A stretch of 64,000 nucleotides of DNA from an uncultured Alphaproteobacteria bacterium (lineage in GTDB: Bacteria; Pseudomonadota; Alphaproteobacteria; JALCBB01). The notes beneath the pieces were generated by a model. It saw nothing but the letters and a program-made list of their open reading frames with translations. It had not been told where the DNA came from and searched no databases. Below, piece after piece: positions 23,975 through 34,489 of the stretch. The stretch lies in NCBI GenBank assembly GCA_958267355.1, contig OY279575.1:852335-916334 (forward strand), in the 5' to 3' direction. Both the position numbers and the translations under genes were made by a program. Every line of letters starts with the position of its first letter. Positions within the stretch are counted from its first letter, which is position 1.

Positions 23975-26158
23975 TTATTGATTCAGGGTAATCGTAACTC
24001 TGCTAAAAAAAGAAGAAGAAAAAGTCGGAATCCGCTCGCTCGTTCCGTCTCCTTTTATGTACTCAATCGGCGGAACTTCAACCGTTACTACAACTTGTTG
24101 GCCGTTGGTCGTAACAGTCTGCTTCGTAAATCGAAAATTACCCTGAAAGGCACTCGCCACACGCACCATAGGCACTTCCCACACCCCAGCCGCAACCTTG
24201 CGCACACCCGCCCCCGTAATCGTATAGGAGTCTTCAGTCGCTCCCGCTGAATGGGCAAGACGCACATAGGCTTTGAAAGCCCGCACCTGCGCAGGAAAGT
24301 TTATAAAATTAGAAGTCTTAGCCCTGCCGCCAGCAGGGGCTTGTCCAAAATTCTCAACAAAGATACGCAAAGGTGCCGTAGCCCCCGCACCGCCAAAAAC
24401 CCCCCTATGAATATTGCCAGAAATGCTCCGACTCACGTTTGTGGCTCCCACCGTCAAGAGCTGTATCGTGATAAGCCCCGCCATCGGATTCACCGTACCT
24501 GCAGGCGTGATCGTGCCCGCGTTGGTGCCACTTCCTGCCAGACGAACCCATGCAGTAATTTCACCCGTTTCTGTGTCAGGACTCAAAGTCCCTATGGATT
24601 GCGTCGCCGCAATGGAACTTGCCTCTACAGGAACCAAACGCACACCAATTTCCGATATCGCCGCATTGGCACGATGCTTAATCGCAAAAGTCATCTCCAG
24701 AGTCGTCTCACCACCCGCAGGCACACGGAAATACTCCGTGTCGGCTTGCGCCACAGACGCACCCGCACCCTGCTGAACCGCAAGCGACTGCAAGTCATAG
24801 TCCGTGCCTGCCACCGCCGAACCCATAAGCGAAACCCGATAGGCAGTCGGCTTCGCAACAGAAACCAGCTGCACCCGAACCTTAATAATCTTATCGGCAT
24901 CTCCCGAACTTGCAGGACGGGTAACGGCTCCTGCGGCAAGGTCTTGCCCCGCCGCATCTACAATCCACACCACTGCATCCGCCTGCGGACAAGAAACCCC
25001 ACCACGCGCACAAGTTTTAGGCTCAGTTTCAGTAGGTGCAGATTTTTTATCTTCATCTAAATCGGTTAGGGCAAAGGCGGCTAGGCCATAGACTCCCATC
25101 GCCAGCAACGGATGATTACGCACAGGATTGTAAATCTTTCCCGCATCTTCATCTCCTGCCGCGGATAGCTTCTGCCGCTCACCAATCAAGCGATATTCAA
25201 ACCCAAGCTCATACGAACTGTTACGCTCACCTTGGGCTAAACGATTGCGGCTATAACCTCCGTAAAGATGCAACGCAGGACTCGCCTGATAGCCCACAGT
25301 CGCCTTGTGCGTCGTACCCAAAGCAACAGCCTGCCCCATCGTCTTGCCTGCCACCAACTTACCCTCTGAGCGATTGCCATCACGCCAAGTCGTTGCCTCA
25401 AAGCCAAGGTCAAGCCGCGAGCCCACAGACCGCCGCACCGTAGCAGACCATCCCGCCAATACCCCTTCATACCGCCCATCAGGAGTGCGAATTACTCCCG
25501 TGAGCGGCTGATGCAGTTGCGTGGAAAAGAAATTTGCCCCGCTACGCCACTCTGCCCCAAGCGAAGCCCGTTGGTGTCCGTAATCGCCACGATCTAAGAA
25601 CAACGAACCACCAAGCGTGCCGTATCCCTCAACCCGCCGACGTGCCACATAGCCCACAGACACATCTCTACGCGACTTCTGCAAATCATCTGTCCATAGA
25701 TTTAAGCTGGGCTGTAAAAAACTGCCCGACAAAAAATTGCCTTGGTGGTCTTGTCCTTGCGCGAGCGGTACTACCGCCGACACCTGCCCCCGCACAGCTG
25801 TGCCTTTGCTCCAAGTCAAAGCCGAGTCTAGGCTGAAGTTTTCTCCGAACTGCCGCATACCCGCTTCGCGCAAACTGTCCGTGAATAGACGCAAGGCATA
25901 GGTACGAACGCGACTGTCAGCCTGTCCGCGCAAATATTCGGTTTTACTCTCCGTTGATGGAGTCCCACCACCAGCAAGTCGTGCGTCTAACTCTTGTGGC
26001 ACATCCAAGCCGAAGCCAGAACCCGTCTGGGTCAACAGAAATTTCTCCTGCCCCAAAGATGGTGGCGACAGCACCAAAACAAACAACAGCAAAGCAGACA
26101 AGACCACACAAAGCGCACGGAACTTCACCTGTCCTGCCAAAGAAGCGATAGCAATCAT
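23975..26158 (-). CDS. short inverse autotransporter adhesin, paralogue of the giant one
   Basis: 727 residues. The open frame can be extended to an ATG at 26176, but that ATG overlaps the Shine-Dalgarno sequence GGGGAGG (26168-26174), which is correctly placed for the ATG at 26158; alignment with the giant adhesin start (MVSNRSLRGQ versus MIAIASLAGQ) also favours 26158. A signal peptide (1 to about 36), then a barrel region (about 60-345) closely related to that of the giant protein (SVGYVARRR, DYGHQRASLGAEWR, LHQPLTG), then a linker with a Cys pair (KTCARGGVSC) and a roughly 340-residue beta-rich passenger. It has no Calx-beta-like array. Role inferred: surface adhesin or a minimal partner of the giant one. 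The nucleotide similarity of the barrel regions (for example around 21950 and 25555) shows duplication. Confidence 0.85.
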   Translation of the reverse strand: MIAIASLAGQVKFRALCVVLSALLLFVLVLSPPSLGQEKFLLTQTGSGFGLDVPQELDARLAGGGTPSTESKTEYLRGQADSRVRTYALRLFTDSLREAGMRQFGENFSLDSALTWSKGTAVRGQVSAVVPLAQGQDHQGNFLSGSFLQPSLNLWTDDLQKSRRDVSVGYVARRRVEGYGTLGGSLFLDRGDYGHQRASLGAEWRSGANFFSTQLHQPLTGVIRTPDGRYEGVLAGWSATVRRSVGSRLDLGFEATTWRDGNRSEGKLVAGKTMGQAVALGTTHKATVGYQASPALHLYGGYSRNRLAQGERNSSYELGFEYRLIGERQKLSAAGDEDAGKIYNPVRNHPLLAMGVYGLAAFALTDLDEDKKSAPTETEPKTCARGGVSCPQADAVVWIVDAAGQDLAAGAVTRPASSGDADKIIKVRVQLVSVAKPTAYRVSLMGSAVAGTDYDLQSLAVQQGAGASVAQADTEYFRVPAGGETTLEMTFAIKHRANAAISEIGVRLVPVEASSIAATQSIGTLSPDTETGEITAWVRLAGSGTNAGTITPAGTVNPMAGLITIQLLTVGATNVSRSISGNIHRGVFGGAGATAPLRIFVENFGQAPAGGRAKTSNFINFPAQVRAFKAYVRLAHSAGATEDSYTITGAGVRKVAAGVWEVPMVRVASAFQGNFRFTKQTVTTNGQQVVVTVEVPPIEYIKGDGTSERIPTFSSSFFSRVTITLNQ

Positions 26159-26247
26159 TGAGCAATTCCTCCCCATCGGATGGCATAGTTTAGCAACTAA
26201 AGAAATAGGTGAATTATTTTGTTGCTTTGCATCCTGTAACCATCAAG

Positions 26248-27690: not shown

Positions 27691-27723
27691 TCTTCCTTGT
27701 TAACCCCATCTTCTAGAGGTTTT

Positions 27724-28659
27724 ATGACCCGTACTGTTTTATCTTCTGCGACACGCGAAGTTGTTATTGGCTTTGACGAGCCTTTCTGCATCATCGGCGA
27801 GCGCATTAATCCCACAGGACGCAAAAAGCTTGCTGCTGAAATGGTGGCGGGTGATTTCTCCACTGTGGAAGCGGATGCAGTAGCGCAAGTCCGTGCGGGA
27901 GCGCGCGTACTTGATGTCAATGCGGGAATTCCGCTTGCTGACGAGCCTGCGCTTCTTGCGAAGTCTATTGAGCTTGTGCAATCGCTTACTGATGTGCCGA
28001 TATCCATTGACTCTTCCATTGTGGAAGCGTTAGAAGCGGGGCTTGCGGTCTGCAAGGGCAGGCCATTACTGAACTCGGTCACAGGAGAAGAAGAGCGATT
28101 GGAGTCTGTTTTACCGTTGGTGAAGAAGCACGAATGTGCGGTGGTGGCGATATCCAATGACGAGACGGGAATTTCTGAAGATCCTGATGTACGTTTTGCT
28201 GTTGCTAAGAAAATTGTTGAGCGAGCGGCTGACCATGGGATTAAGCCTGAAGATGTAGTTGTAGATCCGCTGGTTATGCCGATTGGTGCTTTGGGTGGAG
28301 CGGGCAGGCAAGTTTTTACGCTTGTCCGTCGTTTGCATGATGAGCTTAAGGTGAATACGACTTGCGGAGCGTCTAACATTTCGTTTGGCTTGCCGAACCG
28401 CCATGGCTTGAACGCGACTTTTCTGGCTATGGCGGCGGGAGCGGGTATGACTTCGGCGATTTTGAATCCGTTGCACGAAGAAGAAATGGCTGGCGTTCTT
28501 GCCTCGGATGTAATGCTTGCCAAGGACAAAGACTGCACCCACTGGATTAAAAAATACCGCGCTCCCACCGAAGGAGCAGGTGAATCAGGCGGAGCAGAGC
28601 GGCGGGCAGGTGGCAGACGCGGTGGCAGGGCGGCACGGGTTGCGGCTCCTGCGGCTTGA
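27724..28659 (+). CDS. methyltetrahydrofolate:corrinoid methyltransferase (pterin-binding domain protein)
   Basis: 311 residues from the ATG at 27724, preceded by AGAGG; an upstream TTG at 27697 is in frame but lies in repeat-derived sequence. The protein is a single pterin-binding TIM barrel of the AcsE/MtgA/MetH-middle-domain type: IGERINPTGRK near the N-terminus, DVNAG, SNDETGI, DPLVMPIG and ASNISFGLPNR. It would move the methyl group of methyltetrahydrofolate to or from a corrinoid protein in the cytoplasm. It is followed 33 bp later by an ASKHA corrinoid reactivator, so the pair belongs to one B12-dependent system, either a split MetH (pterin-binding subunit) or a methylamine/betaine demethylation system; the corrinoid and substrate subunits are not in the window. 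The C-terminal 30 residues are an Arg/Gly-rich tail not typical of the family. Confidence 0.85.
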   Translation: MTRTVLSSATREVVIGFDEPFCIIGERINPTGRKKLAAEMVAGDFSTVEADAVAQVRAGARVLDVNAGIPLADEPALLAKSIELVQSLTDVPISIDSSIVEALEAGLAVCKGRPLLNSVTGEEERLESVLPLVKKHECAVVAISNDETGISEDPDVRFAVAKKIVERAADHGIKPEDVVVDPLVMPIGALGGAGRQVFTLVRRLHDELKVNTTCGASNISFGLPNRHGLNATFLAMAAGAGMTSAILNPLHEEEMAGVLASDVMLAKDKDCTHWIKKYRAPTEGAGESGGAERRAGGRRGGRAARVAAPAA

Positions 28660-28692
28660 CCTAGCGGGGCTACGGACGCGACAGCAAGGCGC

Positions 28693-30762
28693 GTGGCGGT
28701 GAGCGGGCATAAGATTGTTTTCACGCCTTCGGGCAAGCGTGGCGTTGTTGCGGCGGGCACGACTCTGCTGGAAGCTGCGCGTACATTCGGCGTGGATTTG
28801 GACTCGGTCTGTGGTGGGCGGGGTATTTGTGGCAGGTGTCAGGTGGTTCCGACTTTTGGTTCGTTTGCCAAGCACGGGATTGAAAGCCAGGCAGAGCATT
28901 TAAACGCGCCTAACGAAGTTGAAGCTCGCTATGCCACGCGCAAGCCCTTGGCGGAGGGAAGGCGGCTTGGCTGTCAGTGCAAGGTATCGGGAAACTTGGT
29001 TGTGGATGTACCTGAGTCTAGTCAGGTGCATCGTCAGGTGGTACGCAAGCGGGCTGAAGTTCGGGCGGTGACGGTGGATCCTGTTGTCCGTCCGCTGTAC
29101 TTGGAAGTAGAAGAGCCTGATATGCACCATCCCAGCGGCGATTGGGAGCGTGTACTGACTGCTCTAGCCAGCCAATGGGAAATTGACACGCGGGCTGTGA
29201 CGATTGCTCCTACGGCTCTTGACGAGCTACAGACGGCTTTGCGGGCGGGCAAGTGGAAGGTTACGGTTGCGCTCCACGAAGAGCGGCATGGAGCGACGAC
29301 AACAGGCCACCGTGTTTTGGCGGTTCGTGCGGGTTTCCACGACACCTTTTATGGAGTCGCGATAGATATTGGCTCAACCACGATTGCCTGTCACTTGGTG
29401 CGTCTTGCTGACGGAGAAGTTGTAGCTTCGTCTGGGGCGATGAATCCGCAGATACGGTTTGGTGAAGATCTGATGAGTCGGGTTTCCTATGTGATGATGA
29501 ACGAAGGAGGCGAAGCCGAGTTAACCCAAGTTGTGCGTGAAGCCGCTGACACGGCGATTGCTGAGACCTTGACGGAAGCGGAAGTAGATACGAAAGACTT
29601 GGTGGCGATGGTGTTTGTGGGCAATCCTGTGATGCATCACTTGTTTCTTGGTTTGAATCCTGTTGAGTTGGGCGGTGCGCCTTTTGCTTTGGCATTGAAC
29701 TCGTCTATTACGACTCCAGCGACTTCGTTGGGCTTGACCCAAGGAGCGGGCGCAATCGCTTACCTCCTGCCTTGCATTGCGGGTCATGTCGGAGCTGATT
29801 GTGCGGCGGTGATTTTGTCAGAGACTCCACATACCCGTGATGAAATAACGCTGGTGGTAGATGTAGGCACGAATGCTGAAATCGTGCTGGGCAACAAGGA
29901 GCGGGTATTGGCGTGTAGCTCTCCTACGGGGCCAGCTTTTGAAGGGGCGCAAATTTCCTGCGGACAGCGTGCGGCACCAGGGGCGATAGAGCGGGTGCGG
30001 ATTGACCGTGAGACTTACGAGCCGCGTTTTCGGGTGATTGGCTCGGAGAAATGGTCGGACGAAGAAGGCTTTGCCGAAGAAGTTGCAAAGCTAGGCGGAG
30101 TCACGGGCGTATGTGGTTCGGGCATTATTGAAGTGCTGGCTGAACTCTTTTTGTCGGGAGTCATTCTTACCGATGGCACAATTGACGGAAGGTTAAGCGA
30201 CAGGTGCGAGCGTATTGTCAGCGAAGGGCGCACTTTTGCCTACAGCTTGTATGAGCCGAGCGAAGCCGAAGCTCCGACTTTACGGATTACCCAGAATGAT
30301 GTGCGCGCGATTCAACTTGCCAAGGCGGCTTTGTATGCGGGTGTGCGCCTGCTAATGGATAGACGCGGCGTAGAGCAAGTAGAGCGCATCCAGCTTGCTG
30401 GGGCTTTTGGCAGTCACATTGATGTACGTTATGCGATGGCATTGGGTATGGTACCCGACTGCCCCCTTGATAAGACTTCGGGAGCGGGCAATGCCGCGGG
30501 CGAAGGCGCACGGATTGCTTTAGTCAACCGTTCTGCTCGTGCTGAAATTGAAGAAGTGGTGCGGCGTGTAGAAAAAATCGAAACTGCGGTGGAGCCACGT
30601 TTTCAAGAACACTTTGTCGCCGCGATGGCCTTCCCCCACGCCACCGCCCCCTTCCCCAACCTCGCCAAAACCCTCCACCTCCCCCCTAAGTCAGCCCCTC
30701 CTGCCTCAACTAACGGCGACTCAACTGGCGCCAGAGGCGGGCGGAGAAGGCGAAGAAATTAA
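28693..30762 (+). CDS. corrinoid activation/reactivation protein: 2Fe-2S ferredoxin plus ASKHA ATPase domain (RACo/RamA-like, DUF4445)
   Basis: 689 residues. The N-terminal plant-type 2Fe-2S domain has C40, C46, C49 (CGGRGICGRC) and a further Cys pair near 96-98 (GCQC). The ASKHA domain follows a linker: AIDIGSTTIACHLV (phosphate loop), VDVGTNAEI, CSSPTGPAFEGAQ and a C-terminal QLAGAFGSH block. Family members reduce inactive Co(II) corrinoid back to Co(I) at the expense of ATP. Start GTG 28693; GTG 28699 is an alternative. The last 15 residues are Arg/Gly rich (GARGGRRRRRN). The 3' end overlaps the convergent reverse transcriptase gene by 53 bp. Together with the gene before it, this suggests a split methionine synthase or a related demethylase. 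Confidence 0.88.
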   Translation: MAVSGHKIVFTPSGKRGVVAAGTTLLEAARTFGVDLDSVCGGRGICGRCQVVPTFGSFAKHGIESQAEHLNAPNEVEARYATRKPLAEGRRLGCQCKVSGNLVVDVPESSQVHRQVVRKRAEVRAVTVDPVVRPLYLEVEEPDMHHPSGDWERVLTALASQWEIDTRAVTIAPTALDELQTALRAGKWKVTVALHEERHGATTTGHRVLAVRAGFHDTFYGVAIDIGSTTIACHLVRLADGEVVASSGAMNPQIRFGEDLMSRVSYVMMNEGGEAELTQVVREAADTAIAETLTEAEVDTKDLVAMVFVGNPVMHHLFLGLNPVELGGAPFALALNSSITTPATSLGLTQGAGAIAYLLPCIAGHVGADCAAVILSETPHTRDEITLVVDVGTNAEIVLGNKERVLACSSPTGPAFEGAQISCGQRAAPGAIERVRIDRETYEPRFRVIGSEKWSDEEGFAEEVAKLGGVTGVCGSGIIEVLAELFLSGVILTDGTIDGRLSDRCERIVSEGRTFAYSLYEPSEAEAPTLRITQNDVRAIQLAKAALYAGVRLLMDRRGVEQVERIQLAGAFGSHIDVRYAMALGMVPDCPLDKTSGAGNAAGEGARIALVNRSARAEIEEVVRRVEKIETAVEPRFQEHFVAAMAFPHATAPFPNLAKTLHLPPKSAPPASTNGDSTGARGGRRRRRN

Positions 30763-32908
30763 TTTTTTTATCTTCTTTCTTGTTCTCCTGCTTCTCATCC
30801 GTATTCTTCTCATCCACCTTCTTTTCAACCACCTTCTTTTTATTTACCCTTTTCTTATCTTTCTTTCTTTCTTCGTAATCTGCTATCGCACAAGAAATTG
30901 CATCCCATACAGGCTCAAATCTAGAAAAATCAATTTCATACTGTTTTTGGCGAATACCTTTAGCGAGGATTGTTTTACCATAGTACTGCTTTTTATCGTC
31001 TGAACTATTGTCTGAATCGTATGAAAATTCCATGTCACCATTATCCCCCTTCTTCTCGCTCAAGCATTCTAGGGGTAAAAGATCTTCTATCACACATCTT
31101 TCATTTTTAAAGATATTTTCACTAGGCGGACTCACACTTGTTCTACCTTCCGCTATCTTTGGCAAAGAAAGAATGTAAAAATGAGGCTTAAGGAATCTTA
31201 AAATGCAACTATTCTCTTCTGGCAATTCTATGCCTTCTTCTCCTTTAGCATCCCAAAAACTTTTACCTTTTTTATCTCTATCAACGAGAAAAATTACAGG
31301 TTTTTCTAGATAAGGGAATGTCCAATGAATTTTGCTGTGTTCCTTATCGTATTTCTTATGAAATTTTTTAACTCTATCTAGTAATTTATACATAGCATCA
31401 ACCCCTCCATCTAAATTAAGTAATTTATATATTAAGGGCTTAAAGTTGAAAGTTTCACTTTCGTTGTTTCTTTTGCTCCCCCTTTTATTAGATTGAGGAA
31501 AAAAATTAATCGTGTATTTGTACTTGTCTTCACCTTTTGCTGAAGAAGAATATGAAGATACAAATTGTGCATACTTGCCCATAGCAAATAGAGTAGGGAA
31601 TTCTTCTGTGTCAACGAACAATTTTTTTAATGAACATTTTAGATAAATTACATCTGTCTTACCCTCACAGACAATTATTGGCTTTGGATGAATCATAAGC
31701 ATCTTAAACAATACGAAATTCGCATACATCTTATGAATTCCTGTTAGATTGTCTGATTGTGGTTTTACAGGAGAGGGCCACCCCCTTGAGTGATATATAT
31801 GCCCGAGCCTTCCTTCTAAGCGCGCATAAGTTCTCAGTTCCTTTCTTGTCGATCTATTCGAATCACCAGAAGGAAATTTTACCTCTTCTATTCCTTTCGT
31901 ATATAAGGTGTGAAGCATAGCTCTTGTTTGCCGATAGTATATTTGTGAAACATTTACATGTTCGTTGACAACTAGTCCTGTAACACTTTGGCGGCTTCTT
32001 TTATAACTTAGTCGGGTTTTAGAGTGATTAATCTTGAATCCTGCATTCTCAACTTCTTTTTGAAGTTCCCTACTAACACGCCACTTTTTATCTCTTCCAT
32101 GGCCTTCGGAAACAGCTATAGAAATTGGAAAATTTTCGGAATAAGTAGAGAAGGTAATATCATCAGCATAGCGAGAGTATGTGCATTCGTGTGCCTTTGC
32201 CATCCTTAAAAGATGCAAATCTAATATCTGCCCAATCAAATTTGAAATCACAGGCGAGCAAGGACTCCCTTGTGGTAAATACCACCTATCAGAACGCTCT
32301 TGGTAACAAGAGAGGCGTGCGATGCCTATCGCCACCTCTCCCCTGAGTCTAAAATCTCTGCTTTTTGTGAGATACCCAAATACGCGTTGAAAATATATGG
32401 AGGGGAAAAAGTTCTCTAAGTCAAAATTCAAAATACACCTCTTGCCTTTATGAATGTGTGCGTTGCTATGCGGTGAATGGCTCGGCCTAAACCCATGGGA
32501 TAAAGAAGTAAATTTTTTTTCTGGCTGGTTTTTCTTAATTCTTAATTTTTTTAAATTTCGTTTTTCTAATTCTTCATAACATTCACTTAGCACAAACGCT
32601 AATTTCCTTTGAATGAATTTAAGCTCCTCGCAAGGCGCATGAATTCTGCGTTCACTCCCATCTTTCTTCTTTATAGAAATTTCACGATAATTAGAATTTC
32701 TTGTTATGTAAGGAACTTCAAAAAAACTGTCATAAAATTCCTTTATGGATAGTTTGTGTATGAATAAGCGTTGGCTTGCGGGTAAATTTTCTGTAAGAAT
32801 TTTCCAAAGACACTCTTTTGTTTGCGCATTGTGTAGCGCATCGATGTATGGAGTTTCTGATTTATCCAATCCTTGAGAATCTCTGATCGGGTGACGTATA
32901 TCGGACAT
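30710..32908 (-). CDS. retron reverse transcriptase with C-terminal TOPRIM-like domain
   Basis: 732 residues from ATG 32908 (GAGGG about 10 nt upstream; a TTG at 32914 is in frame). RT motifs in order: the retron hallmark NAHIH (149-153), FDLENFFPSI, QGSPCSPVISN, catalytic YADD (247-250) and the retron region-Y motif VTG (309-311). A second domain starts near 410 with VCEGKTD (E415, D419) and later has FLVDRDKKG (D543, D545), the acidic residues expected of a TOPRIM nuclease fold. This architecture matches RT-TOPRIM retrons such as Ec67, in which msDNA plus RT-effector acts against phage. The last 60 residues are a Lys/Glu-rich low-complexity tail. The gene is clearly AT-richer than its neighbours, pointing to transfer. 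Its ncRNA lies immediately upstream at 32934-33166. Retron identity is firm; the TOPRIM call rests on motifs only. Confidence 0.92.
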   Translation of the reverse strand: MSDIRHPIRDSQGLDKSETPYIDALHNAQTKECLWKILTENLPASQRLFIHKLSIKEFYDSFFEVPYITRNSNYREISIKKKDGSERRIHAPCEELKFIQRKLAFVLSECYEELEKRNLKKLRIKKNQPEKKFTSLSHGFRPSHSPHSNAHIHKGKRCILNFDLENFFPSIYFQRVFGYLTKSRDFRLRGEVAIGIARLSCYQERSDRWYLPQGSPCSPVISNLIGQILDLHLLRMAKAHECTYSRYADDITFSTYSENFPISIAVSEGHGRDKKWRVSRELQKEVENAGFKINHSKTRLSYKRSRQSVTGLVVNEHVNVSQIYYRQTRAMLHTLYTKGIEEVKFPSGDSNRSTRKELRTYARLEGRLGHIYHSRGWPSPVKPQSDNLTGIHKMYANFVLFKMLMIHPKPIIVCEGKTDVIYLKCSLKKLFVDTEEFPTLFAMGKYAQFVSSYSSSAKGEDKYKYTINFFPQSNKRGSKRNNESETFNFKPLIYKLLNLDGGVDAMYKLLDRVKKFHKKYDKEHSKIHWTFPYLEKPVIFLVDRDKKGKSFWDAKGEEGIELPEENSCILRFLKPHFYILSLPKIAEGRTSVSPPSENIFKNERCVIEDLLPLECLSEKKGDNGDMEFSYDSDNSSDDKKQYYGKTILAKGIRQKQYEIDFSRFEPVWDAISCAIADYEERKKDKKRVNKKKVVEKKVDEKNTDEKQENKKEDKKINFFAFSARLWRQLSRR

Positions 32909-32933: not shown

Positions 32934-33166
32934 GTGCTTACAGGCACACAACCGAGATCCAATTATGAACAACCAATGCTAAAACACATTAGCTATCTCC
33001 AAACAGGAGCAAGGTCAGGCGGCGCATAGTGGCTAGAAGAGCCACTCTGCGCCGCTGGTGAAGCGCACTAAAGATGGCGAAGCCAGATTTTGTGCGCTTC
33101 ACCACGGGATACCAACAGATTACATCATATGCCGCGAATCGCGACAATAACTCTGCCTGTAAGCAC
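32934..33166 (-). ncRNA. retron msr-msd RNA region
   Basis: Directly upstream of the RT, same strand. The ends are a perfect 13-bp inverted repeat: GTGCTTACAGGCA (plus strand 32934-32946) and TGCCTGTAAGCAC (33154-33166), the expected a2 and a1. Between them, read 5' to 3' on the minus strand, are a small stem-loop (33134-33148, ATT loop), a long hairpin with a 12-bp perfect outer stem (33057-33103), a second long hairpin with about 15 bp and one mismatch (33019-33055) and two weaker hairpins (for example GCTAA/TTAGC). The residue after a1 is G (complement of C33153) in the context AGGCAG, as I remember for the branching G of Ec67. Which hairpin belongs to msr and which to msd is inferred only. 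Confidence 0.82.
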
Positions 33167-33243: not shown

Positions 33244-34092
33244 TTAGGAGCAGATGGCTAGAAGTTCTTCTAGGTCAGAGGCGATGGAGAGTAGGTCTTG
33301 GGGGCGGGAGAGGCGGTGGGCTGCGTCTTCAAGTTTGGTGAAGCGTAAGTCAGGAGAGTCAATCGCTTCAACGATTGACTGGGTGCGTTCCCACGGTACG
33401 GCTTCGTCCTGCGCACCCCAGATGACACGCACAGGAAACGGCACAGGGATTTTACTTCCGTCTAATAAAGATAAGCCGTGGTCTTCGTCTAACAGCTTGG
33501 CACTGACAGGCAAGCCCGGAAAACGCTCGTAATAGCCTTGCTGTTGTAAGTCGCGTTTGTGCTGGTCGGTCATGGCTGCTCGTAGCGATAGGTGAAAGTC
33601 CAACGAAGGAGCTAATAACAAAGCCCCCGCCACCCGCTCGGGTCTTTGTAAGCCCAAGAGCAAGCTAAACCATCCGCCCATGGACGAGCCCACCAAAATC
33701 TGCCGCCCCGTTGTAAAAGCATCAAAGCAATCACGAGCGTCTGCGTACCATCCGCCAAGTGTGCCGTCTAGGTATTCGCCTTCGCTGGCTCCGACGCAAC
33801 GGTAATCTTGGCGTAGGCAGGTGCGCCCTGCCCTGCGAGCAAGATAGTCGGTAAAAACCGCTTTGGTGCCTTCCATATCGGAGGCAAGCCCCTGCAGATA
33901 AACCACATTCGGCTTGCCGCCTGCACCCGCTCGCTCAAGCTGTCCCGCAGGCGGACGCACCGCCAAACGCGGCTTGCTTTGCCGCTCCCAAAAATACGGA
34001 GCTTCACCATTCACAGGCGACTCCAAATCCCCGATTGGCACCGCAGGATGGGCTACCCCTCCCGCCGCCGCTACTTTTTCGTATAGACGCAT
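33244..34092 (-). CDS. alpha/beta hydrolase
   Basis: 282 residues from ATG 34092, which has GGGAGA 9 nt upstream. The open frame extends to 34155, but the extra 21 codons are the translated 10-bp repeat (34113-34152) and a poor match to any family. The nucleophile elbow GSSMGG carries the Ser; the Asp is in GAQDEAVPW and the His in DAAHRL, giving a complete triad. The fold and spacing resemble small cytosolic esterases/thioesterases of the ABHD10-like group; the substrate cannot be told. It is transcribed away from thrS and lies next to the retron, but its base composition is that of the host genes, so I see it as a host gene, not part of the retron. Confidence 0.85.
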   Translation of the reverse strand: MRLYEKVAAAGGVAHPAVPIGDLESPVNGEAPYFWERQSKPRLAVRPPAGQLERAGAGGKPNVVYLQGLASDMEGTKAVFTDYLARRAGRTCLRQDYRCVGASEGEYLDGTLGGWYADARDCFDAFTTGRQILVGSSMGGWFSLLLGLQRPERVAGALLLAPSLDFHLSLRAAMTDQHKRDLQQQGYYERFPGLPVSAKLLDEDHGLSLLDGSKIPVPFPVRVIWGAQDEAVPWERTQSIVEAIDSPDLRFTKLEDAAHRLSRPQDLLSIASDLEELLAICS

Positions 34093-34112
34093 AGGCGTGT
34101 TTCTCCCTAGAA

Positions 34113-34152
34113 CTGCTTGTGTCTGCTTGTGTCTGCTTGTATCTGCTTGTGT
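34113..34152. repeat. 10-bp tandem array upstream of the hydrolase
   Basis: Four adjoining copies of CTGCTTGTGT, one with a substitution. Read on the minus strand it is open and gives a false N-terminal extension of the hydrolase. Confidence 0.85.
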
Positions 34153-34489
34153 CATCCACTTATAGCCCCGTGGGTATAGTGGCTATATAAGCCCCGTGGG
34201 CTGACTTGCCTCCGACTCTATCAGCCAAAGGGCAAGTCTCACAACAAAACCCCCCATCTTGCGAAAAATCGCAAATTTCGCCAATATCAGAGCAACAGAA
34301 ACCTACCGAGACTCTATTGAACTATGACTCTCTCGCCGTGCCTATAAATCCGCGCGCCCATACTGCGCGACGCTCTGCACGCCTGACCTTGTTGGTCTTA
34401 AATCGGTTGGTCTTAAATCGGTTGGTCTTAAATCGGTTTGTCCTAAATCGCGATACTGCTGTTGTCATGACTCTGCACGCCTGCTGTCC
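34153..34489. other. divergent intergenic region between the hydrolase and thrS
   Basis: About 340 bp with no supported gene. It contains the 15-bp array at 34392-34451 shortly before thrS. I see no T-box-like leader and no convincing terminator. Confidence 0.55.
34392..34451. repeat. 15-bp tandem array before thrS
   Basis: Three identical adjoining copies of TTGGTCTTAAATCGG and one variant copy, ending about 40 bp before the thrS start. Confidence 0.9.

Follow-up and report, generated by a model that had tools for sequence, protein, structure and literature searches.

Computational analysis of an uncultured Alphaproteobacteria bacterium (JALCBB01; assembly GCA_958267355.1) supported, on sequence grounds, a real and complete-looking type I-C (Eco2/Ec67-type) retron, known in kind and with an msd of unusual size and structure. 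The window, i.e., the whole stretch of DNA analyzed, spans 64,000 nt (OY279575.1, positions 852,335-916,334 of the forward strand) and carries the locus on its minus strand in the order a1, msr stem-loop, long hairpin 1, long hairpin 2, a smaller stem-loop, a2, and the open reading frame (ORF) of the reverse transcriptase (RT). The retron type is already known, and the single unusual trait is the presence of two extra long hairpins in the template RNA that were absent from the approximately 100 relatives compared. The locus is likely to be a type I-C retron, probably acquired horizontally, that has an enlarged msDNA and works as proposed below.

RT-Toprim protein

The ORF at 30710-32908 (minus strand) was open over 732 codons and encodes a 732 amino acid fusion of an RT domain (residues ~65-385) and a Toprim domain (~405-680) followed by a Lys-rich C-terminal tail. 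The NAxxH and VTG motifs named in the original prediction were recovered as NAHIH at 149-153 (N149-H153) and VTG at 309-311 (V309-G311), giving with YADD at 247-250 the motif combination of a retron RT. The Toprim catalytic residues E415, D419, D543, D545, and E608 were retained, including those in the EGKTD (415-419) and DRD (543-545) motifs, as was the invariant K645. The best PADLOC model was RT-Toprim_I-C (9e-145, residues 67-691) and the NCBIfam Ec67-fusion family NF038237 scored 491 bits against a curated cut-off of 450. Pfam listed RVT_1 alone for this protein, such that support for the Toprim domain comes from the retron models that cover the full length, from the catalytic residues, and from the match in fold. 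The nearest sequence with a solved structure was Eco2/Ec67, and the five best PDB matches of an AlphaFold2 model (mean pLDDT 78) were all Eco2 chains with E-values down to 2e-44. The alignment to these chains spanned both domains with low overall TM-scores (0.47-0.48 by target length) that may be put down to a differing relative placement of the RT and Toprim domains in the model.

A maximum likelihood tree of 144 RTs placed the window protein inside a 96-row RT-Toprim I-C clade (SH-aLRT 99), as anticipated for a retron RT, on a long terminal branch (1.15) with no supported close neighbor. Its closest relative (L009) was ~45% identical over the RT domain, and searching genome contigs and viral contigs directly with the protein revealed no close relative. 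The PADLOC and NCBIfam models, RT tree, Eco2 fold, and msr homology agreed with the earlier view that the fused Toprim domain is the effector and that a separate accessory gene is dispensable. Four further RT-Toprim-like proteins (L012, L101, L112, and L122) fell outside the main I-C clade, had no GAGT-flanked repeat found upstream, and are possibly further subtypes. The Eco2-type protein of Escherichia coli NCTC8623 (L130) was numbered such that E374, D378, D460, D462, and E515 fit the published residues (PMC12405507); its residue 562 was Asp rather than the catalytic Lys named in that study, and a conserved Lys was present at 546.

The msr module and its family

RT-Toprim loci were gathered from GTDB genomes, IMG/VR, plasmids, phages, and E. 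coli, and the region upstream of each RT was searched, with the collection of relatives using a profile of nine of them. The resulting alignment (A2) held 71 I-C loci, from which a 5'-module profile was built with the window left out. The predicted perfect 13-bp inverted repeat was confirmed, with a1 (GTGCTTACAGGCA, 33154-33166, minus strand) fully complementary to a2 (TGCCTGTAAGCAC, 32934-32946, minus strand), and when the 501 nt around it were shuffled 1000 times with dinucleotides preserved, a perfect 13-bp repeat at a span of 100-350 nt appeared only twice. The a2 arm ended 25 nt before the ATG of the RT ORF, placing the region directly upstream of the RT as described. The final ten bases of a1 (CTTACAGGCA) were the same in a1 of loci L051, L063, and L065.

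After a1 came the predicted branching guanosine (33153, minus strand) in a CAGA context (33155-33152) that aligned with L130 at rG15 of Eco2, CAGA being the priming context reported for Eco2 (PMC6868368). The small stem-loop expected after a1 was present at 33146-33130 (33130-33146, minus strand) as the single short msr stem-loop of I-C retrons, with 7 bp and an AUU triloop (TGTCGCG-ATT-CGCGGCA). The 5' profile of the 71 relatives matched the window at 33163-33120 (E = 3.7e-7), including this stem-loop, with no other good match in the 64 kb. The full covariance model (R1) had the same locus as its best and only match (E = 0.011). In the 71 loci, the a1/a2 helix and msr stem-loop covaried strongly, with 99.2% of cells paired and 427 cells changed on both sides compared to 115 in shuffles; the a1/a2 share of this signal was partly selected for by the search and the stem-loop share was not. 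The stem-loop itself was paired in 98% of cells, with six of its seven pairs changed on both sides. The stem covariation, 5' profile match, covariance model match, and CAGA context together make the homology of the msr to the I-C family secure at the sequence level, and a1 and the stem-loop were conserved in the homologous msr of related loci as the original prediction demanded.

In Rfam, no match reached the gathering thresholds, such that the msr homology was shown with a purpose-built model. The 3' part of the ncRNA was not recognized by the family profile. A weak Rfam match of hairpin 2 to a viral microRNA family was taken as chance, as was a family-like AGAGTG inside the same hairpin (33049-33044, covariance model placement), the perfect a2 lying further on.

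The enlarged msd and its readings

Both predicted long hairpins were real, with hairpin 2 at 33019-33055 (minus strand; 16-bp arms, 94%) as foreseen and abutting hairpin 1 at 33056-33104 (minus strand; inverted repeat with 23-nt arms, 87%), one nucleotide wider at each end than the earlier 33057-33103. A third, shorter stem-loop close to a2 (32969-32996, minus strand) was present in the RNA minimum-energy fold, and the folding energy of the whole msr-msd region as RNA was -118.6 kcal/mol (z = -10). Comparison with the homologous Eco2 ends (dT1 to dC67, via L130) set the limits of a putative msd template of ~171 nt (32948-33118, minus strand), predicting an msDNA with its 5' end at 32948 and its 3' end near 33118. 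By the same mapping rule, the relatives had msds of 59-130 nt (median 69) versus ~170 nt in the window. The a1-to-a2 span was 233 nt compared to 119-151 nt in nearly all of the 107 Toprim-tagged loci in which a repeat was detected, and the msd DNA fold reached -46.4 kcal/mol against -13.4 kcal/mol for the next among 101 relatives. Other long-span outliers within the I-C clade were the L098:2400 region of Streptococcus ovis (189 nt) and L089 (160 nt), I-C retrons whose longer ncRNAs indicate that the length of the msd is not fixed across the family. A 302-nt span at L100, from a more distant group, was probably due to a false repeat.

Further departures lay at the predicted start and end of reverse transcription. 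The window had GUGU beside a2 (GTG before a2 where relatives had GAG), and the A of GAGU, which by the numbering adopted here is the template of dT1 in Eco2, was invariant in the 71 relatives of A2. The position of Eco2 F46 was Ile (I77), where all 40 aligned relatives have Phe, and that of R184 was His. In Eco2, R184 contacts the priming G and F46 stacks on the first uncopied template base, with F46 to Ala lowering msDNA output (PMC12405507). These three changes may have co-evolved where reverse transcription begins and ends, or may be signs of decay. The window departed from the GAGU before a2 and, by its predicted ends, from the msd of ~60-90 nt typical of I-C relatives, and the atypical GUGU and predicted long msd weaken the label of a typical I-C retron, not that of I-C itself. 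The earlier statement that the region looks as an msr-msd locus must holds for its elements and fails for the usual I-C appearance, in which the two long hairpins have no counterpart.

In the favored reading, the transcript would fold with a1 pairing to a2, and the RT would bind the 7-bp msr stem-loop, prime from the 2'-OH of guanosine 33153, and copy the RNA from 32948 towards ~33118. The product would be a branched msDNA of ~170 nt with two long DNA hairpins, compared to ~67 nt in Eco2. By analogy with Eco2, whose RT-Toprim is kept inactive in a complex with its msDNA and whose Toprim domain cleaves RNA once released (PMC12405507), the window RT-Toprim and its msDNA may form an autoinhibited complex. 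Attack on the msDNA by a phage nuclease or other factor would then free the Toprim domain, which might cut RNA and stop phage growth. Toprim RNase activity and anti-phage defense have been shown for Eco2, with DenB of T4-like phages thought to degrade the msDNA (PMC12405507) and tRNA given as the Toprim target in later work as cited in PMC12956279. With engineered msds, the Eco2 RT yields RT-DNAs of 134 and 140 nt, and of 166 nt at a low level (PMC12956279), such that a natural product of ~170 nt is possible and a large msd is plausible for an I-C RT by analogy. Evidence against this best explanation includes the distance to the closest relative (~45% over the RT), the lost invariant A, the F46 to Ile and R184 to His changes, the long terminal branch, which relaxed selection would equally explain, and the unrecognized 3' part of the ncRNA.

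An RT that goes no further than the base of the GC-rich hairpin 2, yielding an msDNA of ~71 nt (33018 to 32948) and leaving both long hairpins as RNA within an enlarged msr, was considered unlikely. Such a product would be near the family median of 69 nt, the great stability of the hairpin block could stop the RT, and the equivalent of F46, by which Eco2 holds the first template base left uncopied, is changed (I77). However, the sequence at the usual stop (TATGATGTAATCTGTTGG), past the stem-loop, is still family-like, and the Eco2 msr bridges two protomers with 9 nt between its stem-loop and the duplex, leaving no obvious room for an 86-nt RNA hairpin pair. Retron RTs also normally copy through the hairpins of the msd.

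The same low probability was given to a decaying retron, in which a palindromic insert invaded the ncRNA and msDNA is no longer made though the ORF remains open. The changed priming-site and RT residues would agree with decay, the long RT branch would also fit relaxed selection, and removal of the 86-nt hairpin pair leaves an ncRNA of 147 nt that is within the 119-151 nt of the family. In contrast, the ORF runs intact over its 732 codons and keeps every catalytic residue, a1 and a2 are perfectly complementary across 13 bp, and the msr stem-loop is intact. Moreover, the hairpins had no other copy in their own genome and matched nothing in plasmids, phages, or IMG/VR. A deletion scan for a clean insertion into an ncRNA of family type did not single out the hairpin boundaries, and deleting 86 nt there gave no better family profile score.

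A further-reaching form of the favored reading, itself of low probability, is a replaced sensor, in which the two-hairpin msDNA of ~170 nt, started at U in place of the invariant A and ended by an RT that lacks the conserved Phe, would be tuned to a trigger other than the ssDNA nuclease DenB. Such a trigger could be a nuclease specific for structure or for double strands, or a phage protein that binds hairpins. Finally, the hairpins might be terminators or attenuators of the hydrolase gene at 33244-34155, which shares the strand of the retron and lies 77 nt upstream of a1, and not belong to a retron RNA. This reading was disfavored and is highly improbable, as neither hairpin was followed by a T-run and both sit between a1/msr and a2 of a recognizable retron. 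Scans for sigma-70 promoters and terminators found nothing.

Genomic setting and comparison with known systems

The 16S rRNA placed the host in the Alphaproteobacteria, with best matches of 85% to Microvirga and Azospirillum. Its order was represented by two genomes in the collection, of which the second (G001), the only related genome, was without the RT and had contigs that break at the RT-locus junction. A G+C content of 36.7% in the RT gene versus 56% in its flanks suggests that the retron locus was acquired horizontally. Many Alphaproteobacteria, among them Sinorhizobium, Rhizobium, Mesorhizobium, Methylobacterium, and Brevundimonas, carried type I-C loci, as did members of other phyla; retrons of this kind are not rare in a bacterial group for which the original prediction knew of few described. 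The neighboring genes examined were housekeeping or metabolic, and no second defense gene is needed.

The C-terminal tail of RT-Toprim overlaps by 53 bp (30710-30762) the 3' end of a convergent RACo-like gene (28693-30762). On the plus strand at 27697-30762, a pterin-binding methyltransferase-like gene precedes this RACo-like ferredoxin/ASKHA gene for corrinoid activation, a pairing suggestive of corrinoid-dependent methyl transfer in the host alphaproteobacterium. Further left, a single minus-strand open frame of >7517 codons (2-22552) runs off the left end of the window. Its N-terminal part matches the inverse autotransporter beta-domain (PF11924, 1.2e-13), two other tested segments had no Pfam match, and it is probably a giant surface adhesin. 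A second, smaller inverse autotransporter beta-domain protein (23975-26176, minus strand) adjoins it.

Among retrons with a fused effector, type I-C is one of the commonest kinds (PMC12405507). Eco2 was the only type I-C retron found with solved structures (cryo-EM 9lm3, 9i2f, and 9s1f). The Eco2 msDNA is proposed to hold the Toprim domain shut and to be destroyed by a phage nuclease, and a natural member with a >2x longer, duplex-rich msDNA would offer a direct test of whether the msd is a freely exchangeable sensor. As an I-C RT adapted to templates that are long and structured, the window RT may also be useful; engineered Eco2 copies such templates poorly at 166 nt.

The window shares with Eco2 the RT and C-terminal Toprim fusion with the same catalytic residues, and an upstream ncRNA with a1/a2, the CAGA priming context, and one short msr stem-loop. 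It differs in a protein that is ~31% identical overall, an N-terminal extension of ~31 residues, the Lys-rich tail, the Ile and His at the F46 and R184 positions, no counterpart of the R332 trimer loop, a predicted msd of ~170 nt with two long hairpins versus 67 nt, and GUGU versus GAGU before a2. The I-C relatives L009, L051, L063, L065, and L040 of Sinorhizobium pRmeGR4b have the same msr stem-loop design, with RT-domain identity to the window of up to 45% (L009) and, in L051, L063, and L065, the shared a1 ending; their ncRNAs of 119-151 nt are without the long hairpins, and GAGT at a2 is kept in all but a few. The myxobacterial Mx162 and Sa163 have msds comparable in length to the predicted one of the window (162 nt in Mx162) but belong to a different RT group; their RTs are extended at the N-terminus, with no Toprim fusion described there (PMC6868368). 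Eco2 with aptamer inserts in its msd (PMC12956279) resembles the window in that an I-C RT reads 134-166 nt, with those msds being engineered and the predicted long msd of the window natural.
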